DNA from: a virus
Reading direction: 5' to 3' (one strand)
IMG/VR virus record: IMGVR_UViG_3300035698_020697
Location: 1 to 27,971 of that record
Length of the DNA stretch: 27,971 nucleotides
In this document: positions 1-14,924 of the stretch, piece by piece
Layout of the letters: each line of letters starts with the position of its first letter
Numbering within the stretch: the stretch's first letter is position 1
Program-made: the position numbers and the translations under genes
Notes under the pieces: generated by a model
Told to the model about the DNA's origin: nothing
What the model saw: only the letters and a program-made list of their open reading frames with translations
The model's database searches: none

Positions 1-932
1 CCAATCTCCCTTCGCCTGCGCTCCAGTAACTTGCGACCCCAGAGCTCAGGCCAAATAGACTCTATGGCCTCGGTGACGTCATAACGGGTAACAAAATATT
101 CAGGGTTTCCCATAAGGTTATGAGAAAGGTCAGCCTTGTGCCAGAGGGTGCAAATGTAAACGACCCGAGCTTGAGGCGTCAGTAGCTGCGTCCAGTCGCT
201 GAACCACGCCTCCTTTACCGACCGACGGAGAGCAGGGAACTGAAGTGCGTTGCGACGGTCACAGACATCATCGGCGATGAGGAGGTCACAGCGCCCACCC
301 GTAGCGGTCGAGCCGATTCCAAGCGCCTCAATGGAAGCATCCCTGTGCCGAGCCGTTCTTTTGATGACGACCTTGTGCTTGGTCCAGTCACCGCGAGGGC
401 CAGGTACAAGGTGAGGAAACACCTCATGCACCCTTGGATTATATTCGATGTGCTGGACGATCTCGAACAGCCGTTCCGTCGCCTTTGAATCAGCGGCGCA
501 AACGATCTTGATGCGTAGGTTTGGATTATTTCCAAGCTCCCATAGGATCCGTCCAACGACCTGAGATGTCTTTCCATGGCTACGGGGAGCGATGATGAGA
601 TTGCGGTCGTGATCACTGATAGTTTTCTGCCAGATCTCATGGAACCATGTCTGCTTGAATGGAACTCCGTCGTCATCCTCGAAGCAATATTCAATGAACG
701 CACTCGGGTCTTCCCTGCATTCAAGTATATTATATTTACGTTGAGCTTTCGCCCGGTCCCGCTCTACCTCCAGCTCCTCCTCTGTCAGTGGTTCTATCTC
801 GGATTCGCCGAATAGCGTCAAGTGAGAGACAGGCGGGATATAGAGCGGGTGAACGGGTCCATAGGCTGTAGTGATCTTCGCGATCTCGTCAGCCAAGTCA
901 TTCACTTTTTGCATGTGTTCTTTTAAGGACAT
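1..932 (-). CDS. terL: Terminase large subunit, N-terminal ATPase part (cut by left edge)
   Basis: TerL is the motor that pumps phage DNA into the procapsid and cuts it with a C-terminal nuclease. About 310 residues are visible from the ATG at 932-930; the reading frame runs open off position 1, so the nuclease domain lies outside. A Walker A motif, APRSHGKTS, sits near residues 115-123. A Walker B motif, CDLLIADDV, sits near 215-223. A coupling motif, VVYICTLWH, follows near 258-266. The first ~65 residues are a charged leader before the ATPase. The gene closes a run that includes the probable small terminase about 660 bp upstream. The motif order makes the family call firm; headful versus cohesive-end packaging cannot be told from this part. 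Confidence 0.93.
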   Translation of the reverse strand, partial: MSLKEHMQKVNDLADEIAKITTAYGPVHPLYIPPVSHLTLFGESEIEPLTEEELEVERDRAKAQRKYNILECREDPSAFIEYCFEDDDGVPFKQTWFHEIWQKTISDHDRNLIIAPRSHGKTSQVVGRILWELGNNPNLRIKIVCAADSKATERLFEIVQHIEYNPRVHEVFPHLVPGPRGDWTKHKVVIKRTARHRDASIEALGIGSTATGGRCDLLIADDVCDRRNALQFPALRRSVKEAWFSDWTQLLTPQARVVYICTLWHKADLSHNLMGNPEYFVTRYDVTEAIESIWPELWGRKLLERRRREI

Positions 933-1587: not shown

Positions 1588-2406
1588 TCAGTAGTTTTTC
1601 TTATCGCCATCCGATCCAGTATCAGAAAAGCTCACACCAGCCAGGACACCAGCCAAGCGGTCCGGACGGATGCCCTTCTTCAGGTACAAGCTCAGCTCCT
1701 CTTTGCTCGCCGATTCCAAGGGATCCGCCATTACAGCATGCTCCATCCTTGAATCGCTTCCGCCGAAGAAGAAGCTTTCAGCCCTTCCCAACTTGTCGAT
1801 CGCTTCAATGACGTCCTTTATGGTTTTCTCGTCAACAATGACTTTCGTCCGCTTTACCTCAGAGACTGACCCATCCGCAGCCTTGACTTTTTCACTGTAG
1901 ACAACAGTTCGCCCAAAGGAGACAGCTTGGCTCAGCTCAGGCAAAGCAGCGCTCACCTCAGCCTTCACCTTGAGCAACATCGTGAGGGTTTCTTTGTTGG
2001 CGGTAGCAAGATCCCGGTCCTGTTTGGCCTGGGACTTCTTTTGCGCCTTCAGGTGTCGGTCCTTGATCGGTGGCATGCCCTTGTCAGGGTAGCCGACCTC
2101 GACATACTTCTTAGCCGTAGCGAAGTTAACTTTGCAAGCCGTCGCGACACCGTTGATCGATGGAGTCTTGAAGTACGCCCTGGCCATTTCGTTGTACTTC
2201 TCAATACTTATCATCTGCCCGAGCTTGTTACCGTCCACCCTACCCTTGCTCCCGGTGCCTTTGGGAACAGGGTTGCGCGTTTCGCCTTTTTCGGGCGTCT
2301 TCTTAGGGCGAGTCTGTGTTCTGGTGGGTCCAGCCTTTGGAGCTCCCCGCTTCTTTGGCGTCGTCTTAGGCTTCGGGGTTTTCCGCTTCTTTGTTTCTTC
2401 GGCCAT
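1588..2406 (-). CDS. terS: Probable terminase small subunit
   Basis: TerS recognises the phage packaging site and hands DNA to TerL. The first ~55 residues are very rich in Lys, Pro, Arg and Thr (KKRKTPKPKTTPKKRGAPKA), a disordered DNA-binding leader. A helix-turn-helix-like segment follows at about residues 80-110 (SINGVATACKVNFATAKKYV), typical of TerS DNA-binding domains. The central part is helical, which would suit ring assembly, and a glycine/acid-rich tail ends the protein. Length (272 aa) is long for TerS, mainly because of the leader. The start ATG follows AAGAGGGACATC. The call rests on the HTH plus position two genes before terL; a different HTH regulator is the main alternative. 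Confidence 0.65.
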   Translation of the reverse strand: MAEETKKRKTPKPKTTPKKRGAPKAGPTRTQTRPKKTPEKGETRNPVPKGTGSKGRVDGNKLGQMISIEKYNEMARAYFKTPSINGVATACKVNFATAKKYVEVGYPDKGMPPIKDRHLKAQKKSQAKQDRDLATANKETLTMLLKVKAEVSAALPELSQAVSFGRTVVYSEKVKAADGSVSEVKRTKVIVDEKTIKDVIEAIDKLGRAESFFFGGSDSRMEHAVMADPLESASKEELSLYLKKGIRPDRLAGVLAGVSFSDTGSDGDKKNY

Positions 2407-2902: not shown

Positions 2903-3142
2903 TTACGTCCTTCCTGTTGGTCTTGGAAAAGGAAACTTCTCTGCCCAGTGGGTTACGGCAAATTCTGAATACTTGACGAAGGTTTCCTCGACGGAGTCCT
3001 CTTCATCTGGGCCGACCGCCACCACGACGTTGGGCAAGCCCTTGAAAAGCTTGTAGGCATGGAGATCCCGGTCAAACCTGCTACGTGAAGGGATCACAAT
3101 CGCCTTGTCGGGAATCGAGGTTACTATCTGAGGCCTTCCCAT
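2903..3142 (-). CDS. 79-aa protein resembling the N-terminus of a GT-A glycosyltransferase
   Basis: I chose the ATG at 3142-3140. It lies 1 nt after the stop of the radical-SAM gene and uses GGAAAGGATG within that gene's end; a longer reading of the frame would run 138 nt into that gene. Residues 13-20 (KAIVIPSR) followed by a helix and then PNVVVAVGPDEED (about 37-49) match the first beta-alpha-beta of GT-A-like nucleotide-sugar binding folds, including those Iyer and colleagues linked to phage base modification. Known enzymes of this class are 200 or more residues, so this is either a fragment, a minimal domain or a chance likeness. Catalytic DxD is not evident; EED at 47-49 is the nearest. 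Its tight link to the radical-SAM and ParB-like genes implies shared function. Confidence 0.55.
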   Translation of the reverse strand: MGRPQIVTSIPDKAIVIPSRSRFDRDLHAYKLFKGLPNVVVAVGPDEEDSVEETFVKYSEFAVTHWAEKFPFPRPTGRT

Positions 3143-3143
3143 G

Positions 3144-4541
3144 CTACATCCTTTCCTTGTCCACGCGATAAACAACATCGCCCTTGTCATCCACCCTGAC
3201 AGCTTTGAGTGCTCCCTCGAAATACTGGTACGGGGAATGAGCCGACTTTGGATCGTTCCAGGCGTTTCGAACGTAGTCATATATCGTCATGGTATGTCTC
3301 GCAGACTTACGCTCACTGCTACCCGTATTGAATCCCGTTGCGAGCCGCCACAAGAACTTTTTCATCCAGGCAGCATCAGCACTGATGTCAGACCAAGCGA
3401 CCTCACCATTCTCCCGCTTCATGGCGATGACAAGGGCGTTCGTAAACTGGCCACGATTCCAATTCCATTCATCGGTGAGCCCGCAGCAGGACCCATGGGC
3501 ACATTGCTCTTTGAAATGAGCATCGGAAACATAAAATCGCAACCCCAACTCTCCACAGAGGTCACGCATTTTATATATATAGTCACGTTTGATATTACGG
3601 TTCAAGCGCAAGTACCCTTGCCCTGACGAATACCTCCGATACCTGGAAAGGAGATCGTACCCGATGATTTTGCTTATCTCCTTGTACCGCTTTAACAGCG
3701 CCTCACTCGCCCGTCCCTCTACACAGAAGAATTCCGTTGAAACCGCTCCCGCTCCCGCATCAGCAGCTGCCCTGATCAAGTCAAGGTACTTGGGATCACT
3801 CATCCCAATAACAAACGGCCTGAGGCGAAGTGTAGGAGGAGAGCCACCCATCTTGGCTACGCGCTCCATGGCTTTCAACCGCGCATAGGTAGAGGGCACA
3901 CCTCGCTCCATATCCCGGACCTGCTTTGGATCCATTCCGATAATGGAAAACTTGATGTTCCACTTTTTATTGTCACGAAGCAGCTCCATGTATCGCTCGT
4001 CCTGAGTCCACCACGTAGACTTTGTGGAAAAGCACAATGGATAGTCGATCTCCCGAAAGAACCGCATCAGGGTAAGGGTGACGCCGAACGCCTTTTCATA
4101 GCTATCAAACTGATCCGAAAGCCCTCCCCATTGCATAGTTTTCCGGTCCTTGATGTAATCAGCGAACTGGCCACCATGCTTATCGGGATCAGAAAACATT
4201 CGGATAATTTTATCCACATTTACCGACCGGACCTTCCGCGCGAGATAGTTATTCTTGGAACCCCCAATGGAACGCTGGAAAAAAGAAAAACAATATAAAC
4301 AATTGTAGGAACAAACTGAATAAGAGTCAAACGTCATCGGCATGGAGCAATCAAGTATCTCCTGACTCCATCGTGGTGAGTCATAATACCTGTCCGGAGC
4401 GAGGGTGGCCCCGTCCTTGGCGGTAGCGCCAAAGCGGGCTTTGAATTCCTTGGAAGCATACTTGTCGGTCAACCGAGGCTTAGCCTTACGAAGAGCGGCA
4501 AGATGCTTTTTCACTTGCCTCTTGGGCGCCTGCTTCTTCAC
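3144..4541 (-). CDS. Radical-SAM enzyme, 465 aa
   Basis: Radical-SAM enzymes use a 4Fe-4S cluster to split S-adenosylmethionine and start radical chemistry. The cluster motif CSYNCLYC (C77, C81, C84; CX3CX2C) is present after a ~70-residue basic leader. GGLSDQFD (about 139-146) sits where the fold usually has its SAM-binding GGE-like loop, and TIM-barrel-like strands follow (FSIIGMD, LRPFVIGMSD). A second set of cysteines, C329, C347, C352 and C353, may bind another cluster or a metal. The overall pattern is closest to spore-photolyase-like radical-SAM proteins, but the substrate is not readable. The GTG start at 4541 overlaps the stop of the ParB-like gene as GTGA, so the two are translationally coupled. 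A GT-A-like small gene follows after 1 nt. Confidence 0.85.
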   Translation of the reverse strand: MKKQAPKRQVKKHLAALRKAKPRLTDKYASKEFKARFGATAKDGATLAPDRYYDSPRWSQEILDCSMPMTFDSYSVCSYNCLYCFSFFQRSIGGSKNNYLARKVRSVNVDKIIRMFSDPDKHGGQFADYIKDRKTMQWGGLSDQFDSYEKAFGVTLTLMRFFREIDYPLCFSTKSTWWTQDERYMELLRDNKKWNIKFSIIGMDPKQVRDMERGVPSTYARLKAMERVAKMGGSPPTLRLRPFVIGMSDPKYLDLIRAAADAGAGAVSTEFFCVEGRASEALLKRYKEISKIIGYDLLSRYRRYSSGQGYLRLNRNIKRDYIYKMRDLCGELGLRFYVSDAHFKEQCAHGSCCGLTDEWNWNRGQFTNALVIAMKRENGEVAWSDISADAAWMKKFLWRLATGFNTGSSERKSARHTMTIYDYVRNAWNDPKSAHSPYQYFEGALKAVRVDDKGDVVYRVDKERM

Positions 4542-5254
4542 TCGCCTGCGCCTTCATCCTCGCTTTCGTTTCCGAATTTGTTCACGATCCAATCAGTAAA
4601 CAAATCACTCGAAACACGCCGAAGGTTACGCTCCTTCCCATCTACCACGCCGAGCAGGTCCAAGAACTCGTCCCTCTTCTCGTTGTCCTCGAAATTGATA
4701 ACGATGACCGGCCTGTTCCCCGCCTGCTGTCCGCCCAGGGTTACCTTGCCTAACGCTGTTGGCAATCCGGCGTCGGGCCAGACGGCAAGCCCTTCGCGGA
4801 TAGAGCCGGAAAGCTTAGCAAGGCTAGCAAGGGCGTCCGATCCTTCTTCAGCGCCTTGCTCAAGTTCGCTGAGCAGGCTTTCCAGTTTTCCCTCGTCGAT
4901 TTCAGCCAGTGCCCCAATTGCATCATGGGTGGCCAGAATGCCTCTTGCTTCCGCTTCGCTCACGTCCACGATGAGCACGGGCACCATGTAATCAGGGTCC
5001 AGCTCTTCTTGTCTCAGGTGGCCGTCGATTAGTACCAATTCAGGCTTGTAATTCTTCGGTTTCCGTCCCTTGCCTGCGTACGGTCTTTCGAAGGCTATCA
5101 TAGCCCCAGCCACGCCGAAGGAATCAAGCGCTTCCCGCATGGCAGTCCGTTGTCCCTCTGGGTGGACCCGCCAGTTATCCTCATTCGCTATAAGGTCACC
5201 AGCGCGAACGCTCCTCAATTCTTTCACTCGATTTTTGGGTTTCTTAAGGCTCAT
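4538..5254 (-). CDS. ParB/sulfiredoxin-fold protein, 238 aa
   Basis: The ParB N-terminal fold binds or cuts nucleic acids or hydrolyses nucleotides, and in phages it often sits beside DNA-modification or packaging genes. Motifs are clear: NWRVHPEGQRTAM (residues 27-39), LIDGHLR (75-81) and VPVLIVDVSEAEA (about 91-103). The C-terminal part (about 180-220) holds a second small domain with PVIVINFEDNEKRDEFL, seen in other phage ParB-like proteins. The ATG at 5254-5252 follows GGAGGAGAGAGCCC; the frame extends farther upstream but without a ribosome site. This is the first gene after the strong terminator at 5383-5427, so it opens a separate unit with the radical-SAM gene. A partition role is unlikely, since no ParA is seen. 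Confidence 0.85.
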   Translation of the reverse strand: MSLKKPKNRVKELRSVRAGDLIANEDNWRVHPEGQRTAMREALDSFGVAGAMIAFERPYAGKGRKPKNYKPELVLIDGHLRQEELDPDYMVPVLIVDVSEAEARGILATHDAIGALAEIDEGKLESLLSELEQGAEEGSDALASLAKLSGSIREGLAVWPDAGLPTALGKVTLGGQQAGNRPVIVINFEDNEKRDEFLDLLGVVDGKERNLRRVSSDLFTDWIVNKFGNESEDEGAGE

Positions 5255-5382: not shown

Positions 5383-5427
5383 AAAAAAAAACCCCCCCAA
5401 AGCTGCTACCAGGACAGCTTTGGGGGG
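5383..5427 (-). terminator. Strong intrinsic terminator of the early/middle operon
   Basis: Read on the minus strand, CCCCCCAAAGCTG (5427-5415) and CAGCTTTGGGGGG (5405-5393) form a perfect 13-bp stem with a 9-nt loop. A run of nine T residues (5391-5383) follows. This is a textbook Rho-independent terminator for transcripts coming from the MazG-like gene. On the plus strand no T tract follows, so it acts in one direction only. Confidence 0.93.
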
Positions 5428-5536
5428 AAATGAAACTGGAACGGAACGGTTTGGGTTATCCTCACCTTCCTTTCACTTTTACAATAATCAAAAAAACAAA
5501 TCGAGAACCGAAGGCTTAGCCTACCACGAAACCTCT

Positions 5537-6292
5537 TTACAGCCTCTTGTTTGCTTCCGCTGTCATCGCATCAACAGCCTGGACAATCTGGTGAATACCG
5601 AAATCAGTTGAGATGCCTCCTCGGTTTTCTCGGACCATTCCACAATACCAAAGGGCCATCAGCGCCCGATAGTCCTGGTCGGCACTCCTGTAGTTCATCA
5701 GAAACTCAGGTGAAAACTCGGTTTTTTCTATATTCACCATTTCCACTGAAACAGGCGTTCCGTCTCCACAGATGGACGTTCCTTCACCGGTGGCAAAGGT
5801 ACACATTTCCAGGGCCAGCCGGATTGACCCATACTCCGAGGACGTAACCTTAAACGTCCTTCCACTTTCCGACACCTGTTCTCCTTGCGCCAGCAAAACG
5901 CCTTCCACATCAGCCGGTTCATAGGTGTCAGGCTTGACGAACTTTCCTGCTTTGTTGTATTCGCCGCCTCCCTTTGTCATGTTTGATCGGTGGACCTCAG
6001 CAAGGACGGGAACGATATCGATTCCGCACCGGAAGGTAAGCTGGGTAGCAACCACGATCAAGTCAGCAACCCCGTCCGCTATTTCCGTGAGATTACCAGA
6101 GGCGACCGCCCTTGTGATTTCCGCCGCCTCCTCGTGTATCAAGGCCAAGCACTCGACCATTTCCTGAAACGTAGGAAGCAAGGGCGCATCCGGAGCCACC
6201 TGTCCCATCACGTCTGTCCGGAATTTGTCGATCGCCCGAAGGTCAAAAACGTCCCTGATGTCAAAACCCTGTCCTTCTTTACCGTGTTGCAC
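5537..6292 (-). CDS. MazG/HisE-type nucleotide pyrophosphohydrolase with C-terminal extension
   Basis: All-alpha NTP pyrophosphohydrolases cleave (d)NTPs to monophosphates and pyrophosphate with Mg2+. The N-terminal ~110 residues show the metal-binding pattern EExxE (E54, E55, E58) and ExxD (E70, D73), with a further D77, in HEEAAEI and EIADGVADLI. The family's VHRSNMTKGGG loop (about 100-110) and KFVKPDTYEPADV follow. About 120 residues after this do not belong to the core fold and are unassigned. I chose the GTG at 6292-6290, which sits 7 nt after GGGAGG; a TTG 18 nt upstream has no good site. It is the last gene before the terminator. Phage MazG proteins can lower host alarmone or clear modified or unwanted dNTPs; which applies here is unknown. 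Confidence 0.85.
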   Translation of the reverse strand: MQHGKEGQGFDIRDVFDLRAIDKFRTDVMGQVAPDAPLLPTFQEMVECLALIHEEAAEITRAVASGNLTEIADGVADLIVVATQLTFRCGIDIVPVLAEVHRSNMTKGGGEYNKAGKFVKPDTYEPADVEGVLLAQGEQVSESGRTFKVTSSEYGSIRLALEMCTFATGEGTSICGDGTPVSVEMVNIEKTEFSPEFLMNYRSADQDYRALMALWYCGMVRENRGGISTDFGIHQIVQAVDAMTAEANKRL

Positions 6293-6306
6293 GAATCGCC
6301 TCCCTT

Positions 6307-6510
6307 TCAAGAATATCGAAATTTTCCACTGCTCCGCACCGTTCCCTTGTGTGATTTTGCCTCATGAAAAATCGGGACATATTCAACCGTAACATCAAAC
6401 GGTTTCAGGCACTCCTCGTTCTTGCAGGTCCACTCCCCGTCTTCTACGGGATCGCCATCAGCCCAGACGTGGTCATGATGACACCACGGACAAGTAATAA
6501 CCTCAGGCAT
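6307..6510 (-). CDS. Small zinc-ribbon protein, 67 aa
   Basis: Two cysteine knuckles are visible: CPWC (residues 7-10) and CKNEEC (about 29-34). HH, HDHVW and several acidic residues lie between them. The layout is that of a small zinc ribbon. The ATG at 6510 follows AAGGGTGGGTAGAA. The gene ends 14 nt before the chosen GTG of the MazG-like gene, and its last codons form the upstream part of that gene's ribosome site. No known family can be named; an adaptor or nucleic-acid-binding role is possible. Confidence 0.75.
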   Translation of the reverse strand: MPEVITCPWCHHDHVWADGDPVEDGEWTCKNEECLKPFDVTVEYVPIFHEAKSHKGTVRSSGKFRYS

Positions 6511-7504: not shown

Positions 7505-8287
7505 CTAAAAGGTGTCAGTCCCTACATCGTTGAAGATAACAGGCACTCTCTCTCGCAGAGCCAGTAGCAAGGGAATCATGATTTCCCGCATTTGAGGATG
7601 AGCCGCCTTTGACGTGCGGAGCTTAAGAATATGCATCCACTCCCTGAAGTTTGCGGTTATAACCGCTTCCGTCTTTGTGGAAAGCGGAAGAACCGACCGC
7701 GCCTGCTGAGGCGACCATTCTTGGGCAAGAAGATTAGTATAATCCGCTTCGGCCCTGTTCATGGCGTTAAACCATATCCAGTCTGGATTTCCTGGAGTTA
7801 CATCAATCTCAATTCCTTCCCCGTCTACGCCTATTCTCACAGGCCAATGCTCACCGCAGCCTTGATAGCCGCCTTCCTTATATTCACCAGGGACGAAGCC
7901 ACACCAGAACGGAATCACGAACCGACATCCTTTTTCGCCATAGTTGCAGTACCGGGTTGACTCCTGGCTCATAGCAAGGAGCCTGTGACGACCCGCCTCG
8001 TTAAGGATGCCTCTGTCATGGACAATGCGGACCGTCACCATGGAATGCTCGATGACAGAATGATGTCCTGTTCTCATGATCCTTTTGTAAACCCATTCTT
8101 CCGTTACCTGATCATGTAGCTCCTGGCAGTATTCGGTTTCGGGAATACCAGATGCTTTCATGAGTTTGCCGTAAGCCTTTCCATGCGCTTCGTCGCTCAG
8201 GTAGCAGGTTCTCCCCGCTGCTTCGATGATCTTAAGCGCCTTGGGGTCCACGTATTCGATGACAGCCGATGGCTTGACAAGAATCAT
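7505..8287 (-). CDS. thyX: FAD-dependent thymidylate synthase
   Basis: ThyX makes dTMP from dUMP using methylenetetrahydrofolate and FAD. The signature RHRX7S is intact: R100-H101-R102 with S110, continuing STRYCNY. Upstream, HHSVIEHSMVTVRI (about residues 75-88) is the family's EH..F-type strand. Downstream, ARSVLPLSTKTE and the helix with RTSKAAHPQMREI (about 228-240) match the dUMP-binding C-terminal part. Length (260 aa) is within the usual range. An insertion with several Gly and Cys (FWCGFVPGEYKEGGYQGCGE, about 127-146) is larger than in many relatives. The ATG overlaps the preceding stop as ATGA. It likely supplies thymidylate for phage replication; a hydroxymethylating variant cannot be excluded from sequence. 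Confidence 0.95.
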   Translation of the reverse strand: MILVKPSAVIEYVDPKALKIIEAAGRTCYLSDEAHGKAYGKLMKASGIPETEYCQELHDQVTEEWVYKRIMRTGHHSVIEHSMVTVRIVHDRGILNEAGRHRLLAMSQESTRYCNYGEKGCRFVIPFWCGFVPGEYKEGGYQGCGEHWPVRIGVDGEGIEIDVTPGNPDWIWFNAMNRAEADYTNLLAQEWSPQQARSVLPLSTKTEAVITANFREWMHILKLRTSKAAHPQMREIMIPLLLALRERVPVIFNDVGTDTF

Positions 8288-13345: not shown

Positions 13346-14173
13346 TTATGTTCTTGAGCGCAAGCCCTCGGGGAACGCTTTTCTGTCCTGCATCACACCA
13401 GCGTTTTCCTTGAACAGAACAGGGAACCCGAGCCTGTCCGCGCTTTCGACAACTCGCATAATCATATTATACGCCCTGCCATGCACGTTGAAGGATCGCA
13501 CAAGGTTGTACTTCTCAGAAGTTTGCCCGGTCATCCCGCCAACCACGAGCCAGAATTGCTTTCCCGTTCCTTTCGCAACCGTCATGACTTCTATAATTCC
13601 ATCCGCAACCTTCGCGCTTCCGCCCATCACAGGCTCAAGAGACACGAACAGCTTTTCACAACAGGAAGGGAGCGTCGCTAAGCCAACAAGCCTATCCTGC
13701 TCAAGTGCTTCCTTTTCAGGGTCGTAACTATCCGAGGTAACGCTTACGCCGACCCATGCCCCAGCGCTACCTAACAAACCAGCTCCAGTCCTGGCAGTGG
13801 TGTCGATCCTAAGTCTCGCCTTCGTGAGAACGACATAGTCATGATGGTTTGCATCCCTAATTATCGCGGAAACGGCTGAGGGAACATCACCAGGATTCAT
13901 CACCTCGCCGGTTTTGTAATTCGTCCATATCCAGCTTCCGAGTAGGTCACCCATCGAGCCAATGAAAACAATTCCGGGTATCTTGGTTTTCCTTGGCTCC
14001 TTGCAGCGGTCCGGATGGAAGTACGGGCTAAAACCCGTAACTTTATAACGAGTGTTCGCCTTGGACAAGCGGTCCTCTATAAGGTTCTGGGCATAGCAAA
14101 ACGGGCATCCGTGGTTGCAGCCGGTTATAATGCTCCACGAATAATCAGCCCAATCGATAGCGGTCTTATTCAT
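13346..14173 (-). CDS. DUF5131 (phage Gp37/Gp68-type) radical-SAM protein
   Basis: This family (Gp37_Gp68, DUF5131) is widespread in phages and bacteria and has no settled reaction. The motif order is intact: IDWADYSWSIITGCNHGCPFC with C19, C23 and C26 (CX3CX2C), then FIGSMGDLLGSW, then WVGVSVTSD, then SLEPVMG, then VVGGMTGQ and FPVLFKENAG at the end. Each has a counterpart in canonical members (FVNSMSDL, WLGVSVE, SIEP, VGGESG, FFKQ). Length (275 aa) is normal. The ATG at 14173-14171 overlaps the preceding zinc-protein gene by 8 nt; the much longer frame upstream is not supported. It is the second radical-SAM gene of the window. A base or RNA modification role is an inference only. Confidence 0.88.
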   Translation of the reverse strand: MNKTAIDWADYSWSIITGCNHGCPFCYAQNLIEDRLSKANTRYKVTGFSPYFHPDRCKEPRKTKIPGIVFIGSMGDLLGSWIWTNYKTGEVMNPGDVPSAVSAIIRDANHHDYVVLTKARLRIDTTARTGAGLLGSAGAWVGVSVTSDSYDPEKEALEQDRLVGLATLPSCCEKLFVSLEPVMGGSAKVADGIIEVMTVAKGTGKQFWLVVGGMTGQTSEKYNLVRSFNVHGRAYNMIMRVVESADRLGFPVLFKENAGVMQDRKAFPEGLRSRT

Positions 14174-14924
14174 CTCCGTCACCCCACCACGTTCCATTCG
14201 CCGTGTCCATTTCGCCAAACGTACAAGGACCGCACATCCCCGTAACACGGTGAACAGGTGTCGCGCAGCAAACCGTACAATGCCTTGAATGGTCAGGTGT
14301 GTTGCACTTGTTACACAAAAAGGAAACCGGGTCAAACTCGTCCACTTCCTGAAGGATAGATCGGCGCTCAGCCCGAGGCATCTGAAATTTCTCCCTGCAA
14401 TTGCCACACCTGACTTCCACAAGTTCGTCATCAGATCCCATCGCGCCCTTCCTTTCGGGTTTCTTGTCCATGTTGAAACCGAACCCGAGGTCCTTGCCTT
14501 CCGGAAATACCCATAGCCACCGAATATTCGCCTCATCAACCAGTAACGCCTCCGGAGGGTAGAACTCAATTGCAAGCCTGAATGTTCCAAAGAGAGCATT
14601 CTTTATTTTCTGCAAAGCCGACCAATCCCTCACCGCCCGCTCATCGTTTCTTCGAACAGCAACACTCTCGATCTTACATTCTTTTCCATTGCTGTCCATG
14701 TATGAAGATCCGCCATAAACCTGAACGGTATATGTGGCATTCGCATACATAGAAACAAGTCCATCAGGAGCACTGGCAGAGCGCTTGGCCCGCTCGGTAA
14801 CATCCTTCCATCCCGTGACATTTCCGGAATTGTTAGGATCAGCTTGTATCCGCCTAAGGGTCTTTTTTCGAATACGCTTTTTAGCCCTTCGTTGTTGTCT
14901 CGTGTCCAGTGGTCTCTTGTCCAA
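14166..14924 (-). CDS. Cysteine-rich zinc-finger protein, about 252 aa
   Basis: The C-terminal 80 residues carry four CxxC pairs (C173/C176, C204/C207, C216/C219 and C231/C234), enough for two zinc ribbons. The N-terminus is extremely basic (RQQRRAKKRIRKKTLRR, about residues 9-25). The middle has a strand-rich part with TYTVQVYGG and an LVDEANIRWLWVFPEG segment. I chose the TTG at 14924, 5 nt after AAGGAGG; an ATG at 14939 is the alternative but lacks a good site. The start overlaps the preceding gene by 44 nt, and the end overlaps the DUF5131 start by 8 nt. Linkage suggests it may serve the DUF5131 protein, for example as a substrate-binding partner. Confidence 0.7.
   Translation of the reverse strand: MDKRPLDTRQQRRAKKRIRKKTLRRIQADPNNSGNVTGWKDVTERAKRSASAPDGLVSMYANATYTVQVYGGSSYMDSNGKECKIESVAVRRNDERAVRDWSALQKIKNALFGTFRLAIEFYPPEALLVDEANIRWLWVFPEGKDLGFGFNMDKKPERKGAMGSDDELVEVRCGNCREKFQMPRAERRSILQEVDEFDPVSFLCNKCNTPDHSRHCTVCCATPVHRVTGMCGPCTFGEMDTANGTWWGDGDE

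Follow-up and report, generated by a model that had tools for sequence, protein, structure and literature searches.

Known routes to hypermodified pyrimidines in phage DNA

To our knowledge, the routes by which a pyrimidine in phage DNA receives a chemical handle are pre-replicative hydroxymethylases, the oxygen-using TET/JBP dioxygenases and, recently, carboxymethylation. Phage base-modification loci with ParB-like, radical-SAM and glycosyltransferase genes were reportedly described by Iyer and colleagues in 2013, and the radical-SAM enzyme of Pseudomonas phage M6 is said by Lee et al. to be an isomerase that works on an amino-acid adduct, later in the pathway. The handle that is phosphorylated by the kinase in M6-type phages is 5-hydroxymethyl-dU (PMC6449724). 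Rhodococcus phage Tonitrus encodes ParB, a TET-like enzyme, aGPT-Pplase2 and a 5-hmU DNA kinase (PMC11955845), and in many contigs ParBc proteins accompany CmoX, the C5-methyltransferase homologue of the CmoX/CmoY system for cytosine carboxymethylation (PMC12783734).

The locus described here consists of a ParB-like gene, a radical-SAM (rSAM) gene and a 79-aa ORF, and lies beside the terminase genes of a virus. It would work like a TET/JBP-type hypermodification locus, but we do not call it a member of that class, because a dioxygenase is absent from the window (the whole 27,971-base stretch that was analyzed) and is found in only two of 30 long records of its rSAM relatives. Both kinds of locus combine a ParB-like gene with either a TET-associated glycosyltransferase (TAGT) or a P-loop kinase and an amino acid:DNA transferase (ADDT), in the same order, and the TET and rSAM cassettes can share one operon; the difference is that a radical SAM stands where TET/JBP would be. 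Phage M6 (gp51-gp58) resembles our loci in its radical SAM gp53, similar to spore photoproduct lyase (SPL), and its kinase gp54, homologous to the families found here. In contrast to M6, which has the thymidylate-synthase-type gp58, the window fragment and 30 relative records lack a PF00303 enzyme, a ParB gene is always present, the amino-acid branch may give way to a TAGT, and gp53 is no more than a distant relative of the rSAM; the M6-type kinase and ADDT occur in most rSAM relatives and are absent from the window fragment. As in the CmoX/CmoY system, a handle-installing enzyme that works on DNA would have a ParB-type neighbor and be followed by a decorating enzyme, but the installing enzyme would here be a radical SAM. 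Loci for base modification that combine radical-SAM and ParB genes have reportedly been described before; the new part would be an oxygen-independent role of the TET type, for which the papers searched gave no precedent.

Organization of the locus

The window is a phage fragment (IMG/VR record IMGVR_UViG_3300035698_020697), and the features relevant to the locus are the following.

3..932, minus strand: large terminase subunit, 310-residue N-terminal part (profile match, E 2.7e-62)
1588..2406, minus strand: probable small terminase subunit, 272 aa (similarity to terminase-adjacent ORFs)
2903..3142, minus strand: 79-aa ORF (hhalign score to the TAGT profile)
3144..4541, minus strand: radical-SAM enzyme, 465 aa, GTG start (ORF call, relatives, motif, model)
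4538..5254, minus strand: ParB-like protein, 238 aa, ATG start (ORF call, phrog_498/620, hhalign)
5392..5428, minus strand: intrinsic terminator (15 pairs, 7-nt loop, nine T)

The coupled arrangement proposed in the initial annotation was confirmed. The rSAM start and the ParB stop share a GTGA overlap, the 79-aa ORF starts one base past the rSAM stop, and the strong terminator at 5428..5392 sits upstream of ParB, between the trio and a MazG-like gene. Terminator-like sites are no more numerous in this region than in shuffles, and this one is simply strong; what goes beyond chance expectation in the module is its conserved linkage across relatives. The position next to the terminase was equally well founded, as the large-terminase profile of the relatives matches 932..3, an ORF with relatives at 43-58% that ends, incomplete, at the window edge. 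The small-terminase-like ORF at 2406..1588 matches a terminase-adjacent ORF of locus L124 at 28% (E 4e-11), the ORFs that precede the large-terminase gene in L124-L127 and L129 at 26-28%, and, weakly, phrog_800 (E 0.043).

The ParB-like ORF matches phrog_498 (E 1e-7) and phrog_620, 'ParB-like partition protein' (E 3.7e-5), and had no match in Pfam. When compared with the ParB profile of the rSAM relatives it gave an hhalign E of 4.5e-6, against 0.36 or worse for unrelated profiles. A direct search for relatives of the window ParB found none, and plain BLASTP found no matches of the ParB, 79-aa or terminase ORFs in the rSAM relatives, so that profiles were required.

Profile searches of the 28-kb fragment found no TET, ADDT, modification kinase, PF00303 enzyme or second TAGT. 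Upstream of the module lie genes for a MazG-like pyrophosphohydrolase (5537-6310) and the flavin-dependent thymidylate synthase ThyX (7505-8287), possibly pool-shaping genes, and another radical-SAM-like protein, assigned to DUF5131, is encoded at 13346-14599 (PF07505, E 7.6e-20).

Conserved linkage and exchangeable decorators

Linkage was counted in the 51 non-redundant relative loci whose upstream sequence was long enough. Every one of them (51/51) has a ParB gene no more than 4 kb from the rSAM gene, and the large terminase is located downstream in 34 of 38 non-redundant relatives, at a median distance of 583 nt. By clustering and profiles, the rSAM neighbors are MetK, ParB, ADDT, P-loop kinase, GNAT or TAGT, and the neighborhood continues with the small terminase, the large terminase and the portal. 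The third slot is variable: it holds a TAGT in 13 of the 51 loci, a kinase/ADDT in 33, both in one and neither in four, the two types being mutually exclusive (Fisher p 6e-8). Most relatives have a kinase and ADDT, often with a GNAT, adjoining the rSAM, and a ParB-rSAM pair occurs alone, with no decorator, in L069 and L096. The TAGT assignment is illustrated by L012 (PF20691, E 1.6e-21) and that of the ADDT by L079 (PF18724, E 1.1e-23; weaker elsewhere).

On a quick rSAM tree the partner classes are interleaved, at least 12 to 16 changes being forced by supported branches. As a ParB gene is present throughout, this indicates that the ParB-rSAM pair is constant and the decorator exchangeable. 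The linkage of three genes proposed earlier therefore stands for the first two and not for the third, which swaps between TAGT and kinase plus ADDT. The idea of DNA base modification itself is strengthened by the true TAGT, kinase and ADDT genes in the relatives' loci, and we consider the trio very probably a DNA base-modification module.

Several other genes recur near these loci. An S-adenosylmethionine synthetase gene lies within 6 kb of the module in 19 of the 51 non-redundant loci (e.g., L019:4417-5445), as if demand for SAM were high. In several TAGT-type loci a two-domain HAD-phosphatase and kinase-like protein is encoded between ParB and TAGT (L058:1229-2314; also L005, L045, and L057), perhaps as a supplier of sugar phosphate. 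The modification kinase family is labeled 'terminase small subunit' by PHROG 800 (L011:752-1342) and in the M6 record (gp54, L133:41685-42248), whereas profile comparison assigns these proteins to the kinase family; the label is a misannotation by which loci of this kind would be overlooked.

Distribution of the radical-SAM family

The window rSAM has at least 158 confirmed relatives in viral contigs, the best 80 of the 158 at 48-57% identity; a further 17 loci, 42-57% identical, lie on contigs of bacterial genomes. The bacterial hosts, which are mostly anaerobes, include Bacteroides, Prevotella, Phocaeicola, Selenomonas, Clostridia, and others, with Bacteroides fragilis S82 and Selenomonas ruminantium S137 among the strains. 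A search of 50,697 GenBank phage records with the B. fragilis member gave no match, which explains why the family has so far gone unnoticed; the window rSAM itself gave one weak partial match in the same set (24% over 39%, E 3e-4).

Other candidates were rejected as members: PA0069-like matches in Bacteroidota (91/296), where the B. fragilis S82 prophage is the sole clear member, and a distant rSAM in L121 (E 7e-43) with no ParB or decorator adjoining. Two rSAM loci with the same set of genes (L085 and L086) share a single contig of 78 kb in a Clostridia MAG (JAFYOI010000001.1), which may reflect a concatemer or prophage duplication.

A candidate for the first step of hypermodification

Known handle makers are scarce in the rSAM records. 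The thymidylate-synthase-type hydroxymethylase (PF00303) was found in none of 30 long rSAM records with a profile that was positive in nine control genomes, and TET/JBP was absent from 28 of the 30 with a profile positive in controls G025 and G026; these absences are soft, because the records are mostly fragments. TET was likewise found in none of nine searched bacterial genomes that hold an rSAM locus. The observation in the initial annotation that no hydroxymethylase is seen at this locus is thus correct, but it is no peculiarity of the window. Since the hydroxymethylase and TET are absent from nearly all rSAM records, the rSAM becomes a candidate for the first step. A Dcm-type methylase as a constant source of 5-methylcytosine was rejected (present in only 4/30 records), as was ThyX as a general explanation of the substrate (1/30).

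The gene orders of TET relatives are ParB-TET-TAGT (L109, L115) and ParB-TET-kinase-ADDT (L112). TET and rSAM lie in or beside one operon in the viral loci L079, L107/L080, L108, and L110, and in the two TET-positive rSAM records each of the two enzymes has its own ParB. In L107 and L110 the order is ParB-TET-ParB-rSAM-TAGT, and the alignment of L109 with L107 is interrupted by a gap of about 1.95 kb in L109, flanked by matching sequence and corresponding exactly to the ParB and rSAM genes; the two loci differ by a natural insertion or loss of a ParB-rSAM cassette. Among GenBank phages, TET was found in those of Pelagibacter, Nonlabens, Synechococcus, Caulobacter, Stenotrophomonas, and Methylophilales, whose hosts are aerobes. 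From the shared plan of the TET and rSAM loci and the oxygen habits of the hosts, we infer that the two enzymes do the same kind of job, activating a methylpyrimidine in DNA, TET with oxygen and the rSAM without it. The published Tonitrus, M6-type and CmoX loci are in keeping with this. A PLP-dependent ACC-deaminase-like enzyme is also encoded in the ParB-TET-ADDT-kinase operon of L079 (L079:10900-12042).

The ParB-like protein and the radical SAM would then form a two-gene cassette for DNA base activation in phages. The ParB-like protein would bind DNA and bring the rSAM to it or set its sites, and the 5'-deoxyadenosyl radical of the rSAM would functionalize the 5-methyl group (or C5) of a pyrimidine, most simply thymine, in phage DNA after replication. 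In most relatives the handle would next be decorated by the TAGT sugar transferase or by the DNA kinase and ADDT, with or without a GNAT acetyltransferase. Occupying the place of the TET/JBP dioxygenases in sister loci, the rSAM is probably their oxygen-independent counterpart. That it installs the handle as TET does is, in our judgment, evenly poised. The complete proposal, in which the ParB-rSAM pair in phages of anaerobic gut bacteria places a hydroxyl or equivalent handle on the thymine methyl group in DNA, as the oxygen-independent equivalent of TET/JBP and the first step of an interchangeable sugar or amino-acid hypermodification, is tentative and falls somewhat short of an even chance. 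Against a TET-like role of the rSAM weigh the coexistence of TET and rSAM in L079, L107/L080, L108, and L110, where the rSAM need not stand in for TET, the unusual chemistry of methyl hydroxylation by a radical SAM, the late-acting isomerase role reported for the distant homologue M6 gp53, and a window TAGT that is a 79-aa piece only. Action 'just before packaging', as suggested in the initial annotation, would follow from gene position only. If true, a radical-SAM route would explain DNA hypermodification in phages of strictly anaerobic gut bacteria and would be a novel radical reaction on DNA, open to direct test in the prophages of cultured strains, B. fragilis S82 and S. ruminantium S137 among them.

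Alternatively, the rSAM could be a late tailoring enzyme that, like the radical-SAM isomerase of M6, rearranges an amino-acid group on 5-hydroxymethyl-dU made by another enzyme, after the kinase and transferase have acted. The rSAM and M6 gp53 are distantly homologous (hhalign E 1.8e-6 with a score of 54, ten shuffles giving at most about 20), gp54 belongs to the kinase family of the rSAM loci (5e-14), and a kinase and ADDT, often with a GNAT, adjoin the rSAM in most relatives. However, M6 has its thymidylate synthase gp58, for which none of the rSAM records searched holds a PF00303 counterpart, and ParB-rSAM-only loci exist (L069, L096). Moreover, the 13 non-redundant TAGT loci include no kinase/ADDT, and in seven such records no ADDT was found anywhere in the available sequence (0/7, controls 4/4), so that all members are unlikely to share an amino-acid substrate. 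A late role of this kind is in our view unlikely.

The occurrence of TET and rSAM each with its own ParB, in L079 and L080/L107/L110, would also fit an rSAM that serves a second, separate base modification, unrelated to the products of the neighboring TAGT, kinase and ADDT. This would leave the TAGT or kinase with no known supplier of a hydroxyl group in the 28 of 30 records that lack TET, and we regard it as improbable.

The 79-aa ORF

The initial annotation took the 79-aa protein for a GT-A-like one, a reading that is weakly supported. Its hhalign score against the TAGT profile is 26, compared with a maximum of 17 in 100 shuffles, and it ranks top of the 108 window ORFs for this profile, above the others of its size class. 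The likeness is a short IPSxxR segment within at most the first 30-60 residues, and against two close TAGTs the comparison was weak, with hhalign scores not above those of shuffles. The central DxD-like and C-terminal KED segments are absent, the ORF stopping before the acceptor and metal-binding half; it is therefore unlikely to be a working GT-A enzyme alone. Its structure model is poor (pLDDT 67, pTM 0.48), and a direct search found no relatives. A match to profile A3 (3.6e-10) was discarded as circular, the ORF being included in that profile. Judged by sequence likeness, the ORF could possibly be an N-terminal remnant of a TAGT-type GT-A glycosyltransferase.

Most likely the window holds a ParB-rSAM core whose third gene is truncated or of a very different kind; it may hold the core only. 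With such a core and a short TAGT-like ORF, the product in the window phage may be an undecorated base. The ORF ending short of the conserved half, and the lack of any other TAGT, ADDT, TET or modification kinase in the window, could instead mean that the module is decaying and the modified base no longer made. Both the ParB and the rSAM of the window are full length, though, the rSAM with all its invariant residues, and loci with these two genes only are known (L069, L096); decay seems to us distinctly improbable.

Predicted fold of the radical-SAM enzyme

By sequence, the rSAM is only loosely placed. It matches PF04055 under the Pfam cut-off (E 5e-5) and otherwise PA0069-type families only, below their cut-offs, and a search for solved structures with its profile gave chance matches only. 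The CX3CX2C motif (C77, C81, C84) is invariant in 89/89 aligned members, as are C65, C273, C352, and C353. The AlphaFold model (pLDDT 90.3) has the partial TIM barrel of radical-SAM enzymes, with SPL, SuiB, PFL-AE, and others as top structural matches. The comparison with SPL gave a Foldseek E of 1.6e-9 and a Z of 19.8 over 279 aligned residues at 3.6 A, the next entry reaching 16.2, and SPL is thus the closest solved fold to the predicted structure.

SPL (SplB, COG1533), which acts on a thymine lesion in DNA and has thymine in DNA as its substrate, shares the CX3CX2C motif with the rSAM. Unlike SPL, to which it is about 15% identical, the rSAM has an extra C-terminal part with the invariant C352-C353, its context is phage modification with no repair neighborhood, and the position of the SPL H-donor cysteine would, we presume, fall at the invariant G139-G140. 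That the rSAM is an SPL-type DNA-repair enzyme near the packaging genes, as this fold could suggest, is hardly credible given the constant ParB, the base-decorating neighbors, the exact exchange of the cassette beside TET, and sequence matches confined to PA0069-type families below cut-off.

The same slot in sister phages

Base modification is independently supported by other modification sets, each with a ParB gene, in the same slot of related phages; L124, L125, and L129 are among the window's nearest terminase relatives. In L124 (3255-7953) and L129 (3634-7848) two further kinds of radical SAM, a ParB and a full TAGT precede the terminase. One radical SAM in each is of the phrog_9298 type, and in L129 this protein also has a weak match for B12 binding; the other radical SAM gives a SPASM match in L124. 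Neither stretch contains a TET or an SPL-like rSAM, and these enzymes are perhaps another way of making the handle. A ParB beside a closely matching terminase is what L126 and L127 show. The slot beside the terminase is thus an island of base-modification genes in which ParB is the one fixed element. At the place of the trio, L125 carries genes for PTPS/QueD, FolE, QueC, a QueE-like protein and a DpdA-like transglycosylase (L125:4141-7993), a 7-deazaguanine DNA modification set by domain search, followed by ParB and the large terminase.
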